Origin: Flaviramulus sp. BrNp1-15
GTDB taxonomy: Bacteria > Bacteroidota > Bacteroidia > Flavobacteriales > Flavobacteriaceae
Direction of reading: 5' to 3'
NCBI RefSeq assembly: GCF_022259695.1
Contig: NZ_CP092099.1
Location: 1-64,000, forward strand
Length of the DNA: 64,000 nucleotides
Both the position numbers and the translations under genes were made by a program. Positions 35,644 through 48,409 of the stretch are shown here, one piece after another. How positions within the stretch are numbered: position 1 is the stretch's first letter; each line of letters starts with the position of its first letter. Below the pieces are notes generated by a model. The model searched no databases and had not been told where the DNA came from. It saw nothing but the letters and a program-made list of their open reading frames with translations.

Positions 35644-35669
35644 GACCTTTCGACTGCGCTCAAGGTGAC
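35644..35669 (-). repeat. REP-like element, TTGAGCGCAGTCGAA type
   Basis: The plus-strand core is CTTTCGACTGCGCTCAAGG followed by TGAC. On the minus strand it reads TCA, CCTTGA, a GCGCAG loop and a TC-GA-AAGG return arm with a two-base bulge. An identical core occurs at 48336-48362. Confidence 0.75.
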
Positions 35670-35705: not shown

Positions 35706-38700
35706 TTAGTTTCCAAAATTATACCTTAAAGTAAGACCAGACCTTATCGTTGTTTGAGGGAAAGCTGTAGAAATTGCATATTCTGAAAACGTATAATCAA
35801 AATAAAATATACCTGTTAGGTTTTTACTAAAAGCATAATCTGCTGAATATTTTAAGCCCCAAATTGTTTGACCAGAGGTAATTTGATTGTTCTCTAAATC
35901 TAAATATCTAATAATGGTTTTATTATCCCTTACAGATATATCAGCCTTCATATTTAAATCGCTCACAATACGTTTTTGAGGCCCTGCGAGTTTTGAGCGA
36001 ATACGTAAATCTTTAATTCTGTAACCTAACCCTATTATATATTCATTTCCTAAAACTTCGGTTAATAAGTTATTATCGAAACTTAATGATAGTAATCTAT
36101 CTTTTCTAATTTCAGCTAGAATTTTAACCGAATTTTTCATTTCAAAGTCTAACCTTACTAACGGACTAAACATTTCTGACAAATTGATATTGCTAAATAA
36201 ACGTCCGTTTTTATAATTACCAGATTGGTCTAAAGCTTCTTGCGGCTGGCTAGCATAGGGAGTTTCTGGAATTGGTTGTTCATTAACGCTTTCGTCTGTA
36301 TTGAGATTTAAATTCGTTGTAAATTGATTAATTGTGTAAGTAGAGCGATACCCATGTGTTAATGAAAAACGTTTGAAACGCTTTTTAAACCAATTGAATT
36401 TCATGAAGCCGGTGTACTTTAAATCCCAGTTTGGTATTGGTACATCTCTAAACGCACTCGTTCTAATTTTATTAGCATCTTGCCCAGAGTAAGCTGCTAA
36501 AAACGCTGGCAATAACACCTTTTGATTGTTTTTACCAAAGCCTAGTGGATAACCTTCTGCATCTCTAGCAAAAGTTGTATTACCATAGAAATCTTCAGCT
36601 AGTCTATTAGCAATTTTTAATCGGTTATCTCTAAAATCGTTAAAAGCCTCACTAATATTTTCATCACTTTTACTAAATGCTGTTTTTATTAAAATGGTTG
36701 ATATATTAAAGTTTCCAAAAGTATTTGGTGTTAACGAGTTGTAAATCCCATTTTCTACTCTGTAATTCTCAGTATAATTTTCGTAATAGGCTCTGTTACC
36801 AACAATATCTATTTTTAAGTCTTTTACAGGCTCTAAACTTGCAGATATATCTAATTGTTTTGTGTTAGTGGTTGAAAACTGCTGATTGAATTCTGGAAAT
36901 AAAGTTAACCAACCTCTTCTTGCCGCTAAATATCTAATATCACTCTGGCTACCAAATGTAAAACCAGTAGTTGGTTTTAATGTTCCAATAAATCCAGGCG
37001 TTTGCGTATAACCAGGTAAAAACGTTCCGCTATTTTCAGAATAATTAACTTGAATTCTTTTAATAGTGGTTAAAATATCTACACCTGCATTTAGTAATTT
37101 AGTAACCGATTGGTTTTTAGCTTTTGGTACTGTTCTTTTCTTTTGTTCTGGTCCTGGAGGCCCTCCTCTAGACGTTGTTCTACTTCTAACCGTTCTAATA
37201 GGTTTTTTTACTAAACCAATATATTTATACAAACGATTCATATCTAACGACGCGTTAATATTATGAACGTTTGAATTCTGAATAGAATTTCCTAAATCGT
37301 AAGTTTGTCCGTCTAACTCTAAATTTCCATACAAATCTGAACCTTTTTGCCATAAAAAACTACCTGTATATTGGTACGTAGCATCTATAAAACTAAAGGT
37401 TGGAATTTTATTTATTGGTAATTGATAAGTAACTCCTAAATTTTGACTTTGTCTGTTAGGATCTCCAACATCTAACAACCCATCCCAAACATCAAGTTCA
37501 CTATCTTGCTCTCCTGCTATTAAATCGTTGTCTTTAAAATAGTTTCTAACAATGTTATTATTTGCTGCAGTGAAATTGAATTGTAACGATTTTGTTAGAT
37601 TGTAATTAAGTCCATATTGAAAATCGAAAGTATAATTTCTTCTAAATAATTCTTCTATAGCTATATTATTTCCTGTTAAGTCTATTTCTCTAAACTTTTG
37701 TCTATTGAATTGTCGATTAACATCTGTGTTAACCGTAAAGCTTGTTGGTAGTAAATTGAAATTAAAATCTTTTAATAATTTCCAATATTTCCCTGTAAAA
37801 AGTGAATCGTTTTTCTTGAATGGCTCAACAGTAACTTGATTGAAATTATGTGCATAATTAGCGCCAACACGAAGTGTTTTGTTTACTGAGTTTTCAATTT
37901 CAAAATCTCTATGTTGTACTTTGTTATAAGAATAGTTTAAGGTAACGTTTTCAACATCGTAAAAGCGTGGTGTTTTATCTGTTGTTCTTGTTTTTCTAAC
38001 ACCTATAAAATTGATGCTTTGGCGTTTTGTGTAATCTTCAGACTGTTGTTTTATTTTTTCCCTTTCTGCATTATCATTGGCTGCATCTAATCTAGAATCT
38101 AAAGTTAAATCCTTATAAAATTGATCGTATTTTGGTGTAATAAGTTCTTCACTTTGCCCATAATTAAATGGCACCTGAATACCCCATTTTTTTGGTAATA
38201 GCTGCCCTACATTTACATTAGTAACTACATCGTACTGCTTAACATCTTCTAAACTACGCTGACTTGGACCTTGCTCTAAAGAACCAAACCCCGTTGTACT
38301 TTGTCTTCCGGTTGCGCTAATATTTGCAAAGTCTGCAATATTTGTATCCATACTTACTACGGCTGCCCAACCACCTTCGTTATCCATGTCAGATAAGCGC
38401 AATTCGTTAAACCAAAGTTCTGCACAAACATCATTACTAGACCTATTTTTAACCCCAACCATAAGTGTTCTTATATCACCAAAATTTGGGTTACCTTTTA
38501 TACCCACACGATGTTGACCTATTACATATCCTCCAAATGGATTAGTTGCTAATGAAATATTACCATCAATTACATCATAAAATGTTGGGTTTTCATTACT
38601 CAATGTCATATCTGAAATACCTTGAGCTTTAATTTTACCCAAAACATCTATCGGCAAGTTAATTTCATTCTCTATTGGCCATAATCCTTGTCTGCTTGTA

Positions 38701-41700
38701 GAGGTAGAAATAACTAAAGGAATTTCAATTTGATAGTAGTTTTCCGTAAGGTCATTACCCATTCTAATAAATCCTACTAAGTCATTATCTGTAATATTTC
38801 CTGTTCCAGATTCGCCGTCTTCTGCATGCATAAACATTCTAATACGTTTATATTGGCGCATATCTACATTAATATTTTTGTAAACGGCTCTGGAATCTTC
38901 AGTTTCTAAATCACACACTTTTACAACCAATGACTGTTCATTTTGTCGAACTACCGTATTGTTGTTAAATAGTTGCTCGGGTTCAATACCTGGAGGTCTA
39001 TCATAACTTCCCTCATTTTCTAATGTTCCAATAACACCAACTGAAAAATCGGTTCCATCATCATCTGGATCATCTTTATCAAACTCTAAAGTTTGTGTAT
39101 AACGTCTCCAATCACTTCTCACCAAATCTAAAGTACCAAAACGAAATACTGTAGGCTGTGTAAACTCTTTAAGATAAACTCTAGTAAAGCGAATAGATCT
39201 TAAATCTGTAATACCACCAACTGGTGTAGCTAAACTACCTTGAACTGGAATTCTAAATTGATACCATCTTACATTTACATTTTCCCCATTAGGTAAAGCA
39301 CGAGGTCTGTCTTTAAAATCTCTTAAGTAATCTTTTAGAGGGTTACTGTTGGGAATATTATCAAAATCTGCCTGTGATGTTGGTAAATTTTGCCTGGTAA
39401 TATCTAATTCATATTCATAATAACTATCAATCGTGTTCATGGTATTATCACGATTAATATCTTCTACATCGGGTTGTGTATTAGCACCTCGGTCTGTATT
39501 TGAAAAGGTATCAGGAGTATTGCCTTCTACACCATTGTATTTTTTATAGCGCTCAAAAATGTCTCCTTCTGCATTTAAAAAATAAGCATAGTTATCATTT
39601 GCTGGGTCTTCACCAAATCCAGCTCCAAAAACTGCAACTTCTTCTGCATCGTCATAACCATCATAACCAACATCTTGTCTGCTTCGTTCTTCTCCTGCAC
39701 TATCAAAAGCATAAATTAAGGATTGATTTTGAGGCACTACTGTTCCCCAAACCGTTTGTTGTAGCATACCAACATCACCATCTTTTGGTAATCCGTTTTC
39801 ATACAATTTTTTACCATCTTTAATAATATCTTCTGAAATATTACCTAGGTTAAATACTAGCTTTCCACCTGGGTTTGATGGGTTTTCCTGAAAAGGATCT
39901 TGCAGCCAAAACTCAATATATTCTACATTTTGCTGTTCAAAATCTGTAGATGTTAATTGACGTGTAATACCTGCCCATGCATTTTGAGGATTATCTATTG
40001 TACCATCAGCAGCAGTAGGCTCAAAATTATAGGGTCCTCGTTCTTGCGGATAATACGCTAAATCTAGAGTGAATAACACTGAATTTTGTCCCTGTACTAA
40101 ATCTCTATCTGGGAAAAGCTCATTAATAAACACACGACTGGTGTATAATCCAGAAACATCATCATCTGAAATACCTCCCGGACGCTGGCTACTATAAAAA
40201 ATAGGATCGATACTATACCAGTTTAATAAAGCTCTATCATATCCATTTTGAATACCATTATCATCTTCTGGTCCTTCGGTATAACTTCTACCTAAATCTA
40301 ATGGTCTACTGGATAAATACCATGATTGTTGAGATTTTAAATCGATGCCATTTTGTGAACCTTCAAAATCATCAACATACGAAGTAGCTTCACCATTAAA
40401 ATTTGTTCCCTTTGGAGCGCCAGGTGCTAAATAAGCAAACTCGCCTCTAAGTGATAAATTAGATTCTACATCGGTATCAATATTTGGTAACTTATTTGCT
40501 AATCGCGTTAAAAAAGGAACTTTGGTAGCATAATTTCCATTAACACCAAAAATAGTGTTATTAATAGGTTCTGTGCCATAGTTTGCTTTTTGCGTAATTG
40601 GACGTTCGTTTAGATTTAACAATGTTCCACCTAAAACAAAGTTTTCATTAAACTTATGCTCTATATTTAAACCAGTAAAACGTCTGGTTTGTTGACCGAA
40701 AACCGCATTATTTTCAGTAGAAACTTCTATTGGTGTGTTTGATGCTTTTAAAGCTTCATCTAAAATTTGAACACGCCCTAAATTATAGTTTACTGTATAA
40801 TCAATGCCTTCAACTAAAACACGACCACCCGCTGTTACTCTCACCGAGCCTCTTGGCACATTAAAAGAGCCTATAGGAATACCGTCGCCGCCTGTAGATT
40901 TATAGCGCCCTTTTAATTTGAATTTATTTTTTTCTACTTCCTCTAAAGCAGCGGTTTTAGTTTCTTTATAAAGAATATCATAAACATACTTTTCATGATT
41001 TGGGTTTGTATAACTATCAGCTTGATAATCTGCTTCGTTGTTATTTGGATTACCATCATCATCTAAAACATCAAATAAATAACGCCCAAAAGGTTCCGCT
41101 TTTGTAAAAACAATTTTACCATTTTGAGGCAAGACCGTAATGCCTGGAACAAAATCAAAAAAACCATCTCCATTGCTCTGAGGGTCATTATTAAAGTTCA
41201 ATTTATCTAAATTGAATAACCTAAGTAAAGTTGTTTCCCTTATATCTCTATCATCATTAGTATCTAAAGGTGTATGATTATTAAAGGGAGGAAATGTTGT
41301 ACCTTCAACAGGTGTTATAAAGTTTAATGGTGATGCTTCATTATAAAAAATGTTAAGAGTGAAATCATCCTGACTTAAGTTATATGCTCCTGTATCGTAG
41401 ATGTTTTTCATCATTAAATCCCAAATGGGTTGCGTAACATTTGTGATACTACTTTTTAACATTTTTAATACCAAAGTGGTATTTACAACATTTGTAACAT
41501 CACCATCTGCATTTCTGTCTACATCTGTTGCATCAATACCATCATTTGCAAATTCACCTACCTGATAAACTTGTCCCCCCAATGTGTATTGAAAGGCAAC
41601 AGCCAAAACCTCATCATTATTTAATCGCTGATTTAAAGAAATATAACCTAGTTCGGGATTTAAAGTATATTCTTGTCCATTAGTTAGTTTTCTAGCATTT

Positions 41701-42992
41701 TCCAGTTTTGCATAATCAAAACCTTCTTGTGTACTAGCTACTTCAATTCCAGATTGCACAGTTGCAATATCTCTTATATTGGCATTAAGTTGTGATGTTG
41801 GTCCTGTTACATCAATATCATTTGGATTAAAAGCATTGTTTTCATTATCAGGAAAAGCTCCAGGAGCTGCAAATACATTAACCGCAGAACCTACTTTATC
41901 ACTTTCACCTAAATCTTGAAGTGCTACAATATTTCTAACATTTTCGGTTCGGTTGCTTCGGTTGGTCATCCAAACTTCTATTCTGGTAATTTGTAACCCT
42001 TTGTTATTTATAAAAGGATAATTCTCCAGAGAAGCATCATAAGTATCTCTAAAATATTGTGCTAAAAAGAAATGCCTGTTTTCATCATAATCTCTTATAA
42101 ATAATTCAAACTCTTCAACAGTTCCACCACCTTGAGCCACTACTGTATTAGATTGTGATTTTTGTTCAGAAAACACACCTGTTACTGTTGTTTTTCCAAA
42201 CTGTAATTGTGCTTTTACACCAAACAAACTTTGTGCACCCGTAATTAACGAACTGTTTAAAGGCATGCTAACATTACCTACTTCTATTTTTTGAATGATA
42301 TCATCCTCTGTTGGAGTATATTCTAGCTTTATAAGCTGTTGAAAATCAAAGGTAGATTGTGTATCGTAATTTGCAGTTACTTGCAACCTTGTTCCTACTT
42401 TACCTAATAAACTTAAACTGATTCGTTGATCGAAATCGAAAGTAAAATTACTACGGTTTCTTGGTGAAAATGATGGGTTATCCTGCTTAGAAAAAAGCAC
42501 ACCTAAATCCATTTCTACAGAACCGGTTGGTGTTACTTCAATTGTGTTACTTCCAAAAATAGTTTCGAAAAAATCTGATTTTACATAAAATTCTGGTAAT
42601 AGATTTTTTTGTGCATCATCAGCTCCATCTTTCTTACCATCGTAAGCATCAATTTTTTCTTTATAATAACTTCTACGATTTTCTTTAGCAACTAAATCGA
42701 AATACTCTGCAGGAGTTAAAATAACGGGATACTTAATATTATAATTCCCTATTTTTTCAGTGTAAATATAACGATTCGTTAAAGGGTCGTAAGTGTATTT
42801 AGACTCTACACTATTAGGGTTTGGTGTTTTTATTTTGCCTAAACTAAATCCTGTTGAAACCGAATCTTGAACGGGCTGTTGAGACCATGCTAAAGCTGAA
42901 AAAAACAAGAAGAAAACGAAAAATACTTTTCGACTGCGTTCAGCGTAACAAGTTAGGTTAGGTTTATAGAAAATTAGTTTAGTTCTATTCAA
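35706..42992 (-). CDS. sprA: Type IX secretion outer-membrane translocon SprA
   Basis: SprA is the giant 36-strand barrel through which type IX cargo crosses the outer membrane; its Porphyromonas counterpart is Sov. At 2428 residues it is close to F. johnsoniae SprA. Recognisable segments include YTYDPLTNRYIYTEKIGNYN, a central LWFNELRLSDMDNEGGWAAV, and many barrel repeats ending in the C-terminal strand LTLRYNFGN. The signal peptide core is VFFVFFLFFSALAWSQ. The residues before it (15-22, CYAERSRK) are encoded by a REP-like element at 42926-42949. No better start exists downstream. It lies 6 bases after ruvA. Confidence 0.96.
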   Translation of the reverse strand: MNRTKLIFYKPNLTCYAERSRKVFFVFFLFFSALAWSQQPVQDSVSTGFSLGKIKTPNPNSVESKYTYDPLTNRYIYTEKIGNYNIKYPVILTPAEYFDLVAKENRRSYYKEKIDAYDGKKDGADDAQKNLLPEFYVKSDFFETIFGSNTIEVTPTGSVEMDLGVLFSKQDNPSFSPRNRSNFTFDFDQRISLSLLGKVGTRLQVTANYDTQSTFDFQQLIKLEYTPTEDDIIQKIEVGNVSMPLNSSLITGAQSLFGVKAQLQFGKTTVTGVFSEQKSQSNTVVAQGGGTVEEFELFIRDYDENRHFFLAQYFRDTYDASLENYPFINNKGLQITRIEVWMTNRSNRTENVRNIVALQDLGESDKVGSAVNVFAAPGAFPDNENNAFNPNDIDVTGPTSQLNANIRDIATVQSGIEVASTQEGFDYAKLENARKLTNGQEYTLNPELGYISLNQRLNNDEVLAVAFQYTLGGQVYQVGEFANDGIDATDVDRNADGDVTNVVNTTLVLKMLKSSITNVTQPIWDLMMKNIYDTGAYNLSQDDFTLNIFYNEASPLNFITPVEGTTFPPFNNHTPLDTNDDRDIRETTLLRLFNLDKLNFNNDPQSNGDGFFDFVPGITVLPQNGKIVFTKAEPFGRYLFDVLDDDGNPNNNEADYQADSYTNPNHEKYVYDILYKETKTAALEEVEKNKFKLKGRYKSTGGDGIPIGSFNVPRGSVRVTAGGRVLVEGIDYTVNYNLGRVQILDEALKASNTPIEVSTENNAVFGQQTRRFTGLNIEHKFNENFVLGGTLLNLNERPITQKANYGTEPINNTIFGVNGNYATKVPFLTRLANKLPNIDTDVESNLSLRGEFAYLAPGAPKGTNFNGEATSYVDDFEGSQNGIDLKSQQSWYLSSRPLDLGRSYTEGPEDDNGIQNGYDRALLNWYSIDPIFYSSQRPGGISDDDVSGLYTSRVFINELFPDRDLVQGQNSVLFTLDLAYYPQERGPYNFEPTAADGTIDNPQNAWAGITRQLTSTDFEQQNVEYIEFWLQDPFQENPSNPGGKLVFNLGNISEDIIKDGKKLYENGLPKDGDVGMLQQTVWGTVVPQNQSLIYAFDSAGEERSRQDVGYDGYDDAEEVAVFGAGFGEDPANDNYAYFLNAEGDIFERYKKYNGVEGNTPDTFSNTDRGANTQPDVEDINRDNTMNTIDSYYEYELDITRQNLPTSQADFDNIPNSNPLKDYLRDFKDRPRALPNGENVNVRWYQFRIPVQGSLATPVGGITDLRSIRFTRVYLKEFTQPTVFRFGTLDLVRSDWRRYTQTLEFDKDDPDDDGTDFSVGVIGTLENEGSYDRPPGIEPEQLFNNNTVVRQNEQSLVVKVCDLETEDSRAVYKNINVDMRQYKRIRMFMHAEDGESGTGNITDNDLVGFIRMGNDLTENYYQIEIPLVISTSTSRQGLWPIENEINLPIDVLGKIKAQGISDMTLSNENPTFYDVIDGNISLATNPFGGYVIGQHRVGIKGNPNFGDIRTLMVGVKNRSSNDVCAELWFNELRLSDMDNEGGWAAVVSMDTNIADFANISATGRQSTTGFGSLEQGPSQRSLEDVKQYDVVTNVNVGQLLPKKWGIQVPFNYGQSEELITPKYDQFYKDLTLDSRLDAANDNAEREKIKQQSEDYTKRQSINFIGVRKTRTTDKTPRFYDVENVTLNYSYNKVQHRDFEIENSVNKTLRVGANYAHNFNQVTVEPFKKNDSLFTGKYWKLLKDFNFNLLPTSFTVNTDVNRQFNRQKFREIDLTGNNIAIEELFRRNYTFDFQYGLNYNLTKSLQFNFTAANNNIVRNYFKDNDLIAGEQDSELDVWDGLLDVGDPNRQSQNLGVTYQLPINKIPTFSFIDATYQYTGSFLWQKGSDLYGNLELDGQTYDLGNSIQNSNVHNINASLDMNRLYKYIGLVKKPIRTVRSRTTSRGGPPGPEQKKRTVPKAKNQSVTKLLNAGVDILTTIKRIQVNYSENSGTFLPGYTQTPGFIGTLKPTTGFTFGSQSDIRYLAARRGWLTLFPEFNQQFSTTNTKQLDISASLEPVKDLKIDIVGNRAYYENYTENYRVENGIYNSLTPNTFGNFNISTILIKTAFSKSDENISEAFNDFRDNRLKIANRLAEDFYGNTTFARDAEGYPLGFGKNNQKVLLPAFLAAYSGQDANKIRTSAFRDVPIPNWDLKYTGFMKFNWFKKRFKRFSLTHGYRSTYTINQFTTNLNLNTDESVNEQPIPETPYASQPQEALDQSGNYKNGRLFSNINLSEMFSPLVRLDFEMKNSVKILAEIRKDRLLSLSFDNNLLTEVLGNEYIIGLGYRIKDLRIRSKLAGPQKRIVSDLNMKADISVRDNKTIIRYLDLENNQITSGQTIWGLKYSADYAFSKNLTGIFYFDYTFSEYAISTAFPQTTIRSGLTLRYNFGN
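42926..42949 (-). repeat. REP-like element inside the sprA 5' coding region
   Basis: The plus-strand core TTTCGACTGCGTTCAGCG followed by TAAC differs at a few bases from the copies at 35644 and 48336. It encodes residues 15-22 of the SprA precursor. Confidence 0.7.
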
Positions 42993-42998
42993 AATATA

Positions 42999-43580
42999 TT
43001 ATAAATTTTTGAGGGCTTGCTTTATAATAGTTTCAACATTGGCATCTGGATGAGCTATCATAATTTTATCCACAACGCGTTCAGCCTGTTTTTTGGCAAA
43101 ACCAAGCACTTCTAAAGCAGATAACGCTTCATCTTTGTTGGTATTGTCTTGAGAAACCGAAACTTCATCAATATCGTAAATCTTTAATATTTTATCTTTT
43201 AAATCTATAATAACACGTTGTGCTGTTTTTGCACCGATACCTTTTATAGATTGAATTAAAGCTACATCATTTCCAGCTATACCTTCTCGTACTTGTTTAG
43301 GTGTTAATGACGATAGCATAGTTCTTGCTGTACTCGCTCCAATGCCACTTACAGATATTAATAATCTAAAAATCTCGCGTTCTGCAAGTGATGAAAACCC
43401 ATATAATGTATGAGAATCTTCTTTCACCTGAAGATGTGTATAGAGTTTTAATTGTTCGTTATCTGGAATTTGAGAATAGGTATGTAATGAAATATTTAGC
43501 ATATAACCCACCCCATTACAATCAATAACAACATGGGTTGGGTTTTTTTCAGTTAGCTTTCCTTGAATATGTGTTATCAT
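42999..43580 (-). CDS. ruvA: Holliday junction branch migration protein RuvA
   Basis: RuvA binds the four-way junction and positions the RuvB motor. The 193-residue protein has the OB domain (MITHIQGKLTEKNPTHVVID), the tandem helix-hairpin-helix region with SVSGIGASTARTML and SIKGIGAKTAQRVIIDLKD, and the RuvB-binding C-terminal three-helix domain. It immediately precedes sprA in the transcript. RuvB is encoded 4 kb away on the same strand, and no ruvC is seen. Confidence 0.96.
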   Translation of the reverse strand: MITHIQGKLTEKNPTHVVIDCNGVGYMLNISLHTYSQIPDNEQLKLYTHLQVKEDSHTLYGFSSLAEREIFRLLISVSGIGASTARTMLSSLTPKQVREGIAGNDVALIQSIKGIGAKTAQRVIIDLKDKILKIYDIDEVSVSQDNTNKDEALSALEVLGFAKKQAERVVDKIMIAHPDANVETIIKQALKNL

Positions 43581-48335: not shown

Positions 48336-48362
48336 GACCTTTCGACTGCGCTCAAGGTGACA
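48336..48362 (-). repeat. REP-like element, TTGAGCGCAGTCGAA type (stack member 1)
   Basis: The plus-strand core is CTTTCGACTGCGCTCAAGG then TGACA, identical in its core to 35644-35669. It begins 18 bases upstream of the ruvB start codon. Confidence 0.75.
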
Positions 48363-48377
48363 AATTGGTTCAAAGTA

Positions 48378-48402
48378 GATTTCCGCCTTTGCGGAAATGA
48401 CA
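48378..48402 (-). repeat. REP-like element, CCGC/GCGG type (stack member 2)
   Basis: The plus-strand core TTTCCGCCTTTGCGGAAA is followed by TGACA. The arms TTTCCGC and GCGGAAA are perfect. Confidence 0.75.
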
Positions 48403-48409
48403 AAAAGAT

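Follow-up and report, generated by a model that had tools for sequence, protein, structure and literature searches.

The Rickettsia palindromic elements RPE-4, RPE-6 and RPE-1 are short palindromes which lie in frame in many genes, and RPE-1 copies at N-termini are reported as expressed in the part of PMC3733652 used here. The same part of that source presents the GTAG/CGTC REPs as short and mostly intergenic, with a minority of intragenic copies, some of them N-terminal, and describes REPs at about the same site in recB of two Xanthomonas species; among the intragenic REPs in this part, none is named as a signal-peptide case (PMC3733652). In-frame REP insertions are known; the new aspects of the case described here are the setting in a signal peptide and the recurrence at the same site. 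In a literature search of partial coverage, no title dealt with a signal-peptide REP or with the sprA start. Compared with the Rickettsia elements as far as that source describes them, the sprA case belongs to Flavobacteriaceae, has a gain of seven residues, affects the n-region of a signal peptide and recurs at the same site across genera.

The repeat is located in sprA of Flaviramulus sp. BrNp1-15, whose genome of 3.58 Mb is a single contig; a 64-kb stretch of it, called the window, was analysed (Table 1). SprA forms the channel of the type IX secretion system. The sprA product was recognised by Pfam as SprA_N (598 bits) and matched the SprA of known structure 6h3i over the full length with 2715 bits. 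Extended signal peptides of autotransporters have a long n-region ahead of an ordinary hydrophobic core. The SprA n-region is likewise long before the core, but part of its length stems from a mobile repeat.

Table 1 Features of the sprA region of Flaviramulus sp. BrNp1-15, in window coordinates
Feature	Position	Strand	Remark
sprA	35706..42992	(-)	SprA_N family, 2428 aa; 6h3i match aligned from residue 24
ruvA	42999..43580	(-)	directly upstream of sprA; stop-to-TTG gap 6 nt
REP-like element	42926..42952	(-)	sprA-sense strand TGTTACGCTGAACGCAGTCGAAAAG
SprA codons 15-22 (CYAERSRK)	42927..42950	(-)	sprA frame, counted from TTG
TTG, putative sprA start codon	42990..42992	(-)	conserved in relatives
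SprA signal-peptide n-region	42927..42992	(-)	22 residues; median 14 without clear repeat copy
SprA hydrophobic core VFFVFFLFFSALAW	42885..42926	(-)	translation of sprA frame
Intergenic repeat copy	35647..35669	(-)	just downstream of sprA
Intergenic repeat copy	48339..48362	(-)	

The explanation that we consider likely starts with a copy of a dispersed REP-like repeat, which would have inserted into sprA with a net gain of 21 nt and preservation of the frame. The repeat would be translated within a long n-region whose first codon is a conserved UUG close behind the stop of ruvA. Apart from positive charge adjoining the hydrophobic core, few demands are placed on an n-region, which is cleaved off together with the signal peptide; for this reason the insertion would be tolerated. 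In most of the simple alleles described below, the acidic residue of the encoded CHAERSRS would then have changed to Lys, Arg or Gln, the repeat-derived residues would now supply charge at the n/h boundary, and across the family there would have been several gains and/or losses of the insertion. As a mobile non-coding repeat becoming part of a protein, with filled and empty sites in sister species, the locus represents a replicated natural experiment. What the affected segment requires is simple and known, namely positive charge ahead of the core, and SprA has a central part in both gliding and secretion of these bacteria.

The dispersed repeat family

The first-pass annotation had placed a REP-like element at 42926-42949 inside the sprA frame, coding for residues 15-22. 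This placement was confirmed, and the element belongs to a dispersed repeat family. The core TGARCGNAGTCGAA was present in 14 exact copies in the genome, its reversed control in none. The core TTCGACTNCGYTCA was found at 31 places, 14 exact and 17 with one mismatch, the reversed pattern at four. Within the window, the 25-mer at 42928-42952 had no second match with up to three mismatches, and shuffled sequences gave 0. A chance match was ruled out by the shuffle and reversed-pattern controls. The core was present in 56 of 64 genomes searched, strain BrNp1-15 included, with up to 108 copies per genome. Thirty of the 31 places were examined as loci, and 24 overlapped no ORF of at least 70 aa. Carrier genomes that were checked retain the repeat family, with the exception of G178 (L199, N-terminus same as L073), which has 0 intact cores. 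Next to the intergenic copy at 48339..48362, another palindromic repeat type, GATTTCCGCCTTTGCGGAAATGACA, adjoins at about 48380-48405 of the window.

The repeat folds into a 5-bp outer stem with an interior loop; the second stem position is variable. Among the 26 copies outside four Pfam-supported genes, 16 form all five outer pairs and 23 at least four. Many genome copies and 6 of the 10 simple sprA alleles have a TGTC end, with TGTA and TGTT variants counted as diverged; TGTCA is read in L171, L063, L150, L066 and L147, and TGTT in the sprA copy of BrNp1-15. This copy had been described as diverged at a few bases, in keeping with an older copy, and it does deviate from the consensus used at 5 of 24 positions and forms 3 of 5 outer pairs, although the stem arms vary between copies anyway.

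The repeat resembles the CGTC/TGTC REPs, as characterised in the part of PMC3733652 used, in the TGTC-type end of many copies, the small size and the mostly intergenic location, but it lacks the loop of 4-5 nt and the 8-9 bp stem whose first two positions are A-T pairs (PMC3733652). Since the end motif fits this group and stem and loop do not, the repeat was not filed there. Dispersed short palindromes, some of them in inverted pairs, are also a likeness to RAYT / TnpA-REP systems as covered by the portion of PMC6006769 used; the inverted pairs occur in relatives and are about 40 nt apart. A REP mobilised by a RAYT and flanking its cognate transposase was rejected: the sole Y1-transposase-like gene found in the genome (L184, at about 1871253) is a borderline match to Y1_Tnp, with 21.7 bits in the genome search and 23.6 bits for the protein at a cut-off of 23, and no repeat core lies at its locus with up to three mismatches. 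Its product has a YIHYNP motif and SYIH at the position where HUH is usual; the table of the RAYT paper, in the part used, gives NH[LIV]H or the like (PMC6006769).

Putative start codon and probable translation through the repeat

The ruvA stop was located in 140 of 146 distinct sequences. In 129 of the 140, BrNp1-15 included, a TTG in the sprA frame follows within 12 nt; three of the other 11 have only an ATG, and eight have no start codon within this distance by the rule used. A looser count, the first TTG within 26 codons, was positive for 143 of the 146 sequences. Later leucine codons in the same N-terminal stretches are TTG in 121 of 856 cases (14%). In 149 of 162 rows, 3-7 nt lie between ruvA and the TTG, and an L-N-x-T-N start motif occurs often (N 83, T 97, N 100 of 143); spacing and motif suggest that translation of sprA may be coupled to that of ruvA. 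From the TTG, the frame is open across the repeat up to the hydrophobic core. Between the start TTG and the core, sprA of BrNp1-15 contains no ATG, GTG or TTG, and the next TTG lies inside the core. The claim that no in-frame start separates element and core was thus correct; that the start itself is a TTG had not been stated. From these sequence comparisons we infer that sprA starts at the conserved TTG beside ruvA, and the repeat is probably translated as part of the SprA signal peptide. A conserved UUG start behind ruvA matters for the correct annotation of SprA.

A translation start past the repeat at a non-standard codon, with the repeat left untranslated, was considered very improbable. 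In the Flavobacterium SprA of known structure, just about five residues precede the core, and Flavobacterium sequences show an ATG just ahead of it; sprA of BrNp1-15 is without ATG at this point. Such a non-ATG start after the element, which the first-pass annotation had itself brought up, is disfavoured by the in-frame TTG that 129 of 140 sequences, or 143 of 146 by the looser count, have close to the end of ruvA, and by the frame that is open to the core.

The insertion in relatives and its history

Repeats in n-regions were called with a 14-nt core, up to four mismatches and 300 shuffles. Among the same-family genomes are some with a SprA N-terminus identical to that of named Flavobacteriaceae. 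Left out of the scoring were L037, L052, L053, L060, L125, L174, L180 and L200 as well as L129, L133 and L139, for which the rule found no core. A recognisable copy was present in 14 of 142 scored n-regions, each with P <=0.007 in 300 shuffles. The n-regions of these carriers comprise 21-46 residues, against a median of 14 (range 8-52) for the 128 others. The latter 128 lack a clear copy, so residues conserved independently of the repeat were ruled out. Ten of the 14 carriers, among them BrNp1-15, have the core at a distance of exactly 50 nt from the TTG; this is the simple form, and in L171 the core at this offset is perfect. The four longer carriers are L064 (Wocania) and L034, L178 and L183 of genus g20, the latter three with a second repeat apparently nested in the first, as judged by eye. 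Six of ten scored genomes of genus g20 pass the repeat score; L177 is uncertain, and L174 and L180 stand outside the count (12 in total). Long n-regions with no significant score shown are found in L172, L173 (P 0.12) and L175 (P 0.16) of this genus; the rule placed the core of L172 too early. By the same rule the n-regions of L183 and L173 have 46 and 37 residues, and both have apparently lengthened through nested insertions.

L141, the nearest relative with 92% over the query, has no repeat, and neither have L142 and L144. Compared with L141, the net gain in the alignment is seven residues, or 21 nt, in frame, and the first ~14 SprA residues align with relatives without the repeat. This alignment shows a net insertion into sprA that adds 21 nt, keeps the frame and lies between about codons 14 and 15. 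An insertion had been proposed before, with residues 10-22 as the segment to be sought in relatives: its absence from L141 agrees, but the gain is limited to seven residues, and the insertion is not private, as copies at this offset also occur in other genera. Equally, the n-region was rightly called unusually long, with 22 residues versus a median of 14, but the repeat accounts for its length only in part; without the repeat it already has ~14 residues.

A SprA tree was calculated from 73 rows with the signal peptide excluded. Seventeen rows were labelled as carriers; for three of these, L172, L173 and L175, the label is based on length and eye and not on score. With these labels the tree has 8 label changes, at least 7 of them forced by well-supported branches. 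One clade of carriers, with the 17 labelled rows held together, was rejected by the AU test (p-AU 3.8e-5); hence the insertion was gained and/or lost repeatedly, and this rejection does not by itself separate loss from gain. The 14 scored carriers alone, with nine unsure names set aside, gave 8 changes (65 rows), and removal of the six g20 carriers as well gave 5 (59 rows). For the 14 scored carriers a single gain needs 18 losses and a history of gains only needs 9 gains; without genus g20 the numbers are 15 and 6. The tree splits genus g20 into separate places; it may be in error for this genus, or sprA may have been exchanged. The base-identical placement in the simple cases suggests common descent, exchange or a preferred target.

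One ancestral insertion, kept by some lineages and deleted by many, is a serious possibility that falls somewhat short of even chances, and it is compatible with the explanation preferred above. Offset and length are identical in 10 of 10 simple cases, as a single old event would leave them, and the repeat-less Mariniflexile-type sequences L157 and L166 have junction bases that by eye may be a deletion scar. Against it stand, besides the rejected carrier clade, the 15-20 losses required versus 6-9 gains (gains only) by the labelling used, and the longer insert of L064 (n-region of 29 residues), whose sister L153 is without insert, as is the rest of their five-row clade. We lean towards several gains with some losses. 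A further-reaching proposal sees in the sprA n-region a site where this repeat family has landed repeatedly at one nucleotide position, and in the encoded peptide a segment repeatedly recruited and charge-tuned as n-region of the signal peptide of the type IX translocon. It concerns about five lineages of Flavobacteriaceae, namely the Mariniflexile group, Wocania, Gaetbulibacter, the Flavivirga-type g20 and Flaviramulus sp. BrNp1-15, and is rather doubtful.

Charge, hairpin and other in-frame repeats

In the sprA sense frame the repeat consensus reads CHAERSRS and is basic. The glutamate has been replaced in eight of ten simple alleles, by Lys in six and by Arg and Gln in one each; it is kept in BrNp1-15 and in the perfect copy of L171. 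In the BrNp1-15 copy, CYAERSRK, the last Ser is now Lys. The octapeptide charges of the ten simple alleles sum to +21, versus +11.06 in simulations of random mutation that matched the number of differences (P 0.0046, related rows treated as independent). Four alleles from separate clades also gave a charge excess (P 0.012), and for the BrNp1-15 copy alone the charge is unexceptional (P 0.38). Because alleles are related, these P values are indications only. In 20 genomes the core with TAAGCG, the Lys type, was found at 27 places versus 960 for the intact TGARCG, with sprA copies in both counts.

A neutral decoration, where any in-frame insert is tolerated and the charge pattern is chance, is possible but judged the less probable outcome. 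It would agree with the repeats in loops of three other proteins of BrNp1-15, in which no charge role is apparent, with the long n-regions at the site that lack a significant match (L173 and L175) and with the missing excess in the BrNp1-15 copy alone. The exchange of Glu for Lys, Arg or Gln in eight of ten simple alleles and the charge excess, in the sum and in the four clades, argue against it. The initial alternative of a tolerated or exapted insertion can be narrowed to this extent: an in-frame insertion absent from the closest relative stands, and for exaptation over mere tolerance the charge gives moderate support. We infer that the repeat-derived residues supply charge at the n/h boundary.

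A role of the repeat as an mRNA or DNA element, with a hairpin early in the coding region and incidental residues, is improbable. REPs elsewhere are thought to act in RNA, according to the part of PMC3733652 used. In the sprA copies outer pairing is reduced and not gone, with four of five pairs in eight of the ten simple copies, and L066, L147 and L160 form alternative hairpins (-4.4, -7.7 and -8.5 kcal/mol) that are as strong as, or stronger than, the folds of most free copies. But these stronger folds are unlike each other, the BrNp1-15 copy has 3 of 5 pairs, and the full five-pair stem is present in none of the ten sprA copies versus 16 of the 26 copies outside Pfam-supported genes (Mann-Whitney P 0.002, related rows). 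On this pattern of pairing a nucleic-acid role of the sprA repeat is disfavoured.

Repeats were also found in frame in three other coding sequences of the genome. In a GT2 glycosyltransferase (L019, ~833566) the segment RPLDCAQG resembles the repeat and occupies a loop that varies in length. In an alpha-2-macroglobulin-type protein (L007, ~951292) the repeat is read in another frame (RLSAVE) within a variable loop, and G287 has a similar segment; as this loop is no longer than in several relatives, an insertion there is unproven. Adenine deaminase (L008, own genome, ~2576644; L210) carries an in-frame repeat with seven extra residues between two domains, which is absent from 11 of 12 relatives; G287 has a repeat at the same site with eight extra residues. 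Orthologues without the repeat thus mark sprA and adenine deaminase as putative hosts of in-frame intragenic palindromic elements in this genome.
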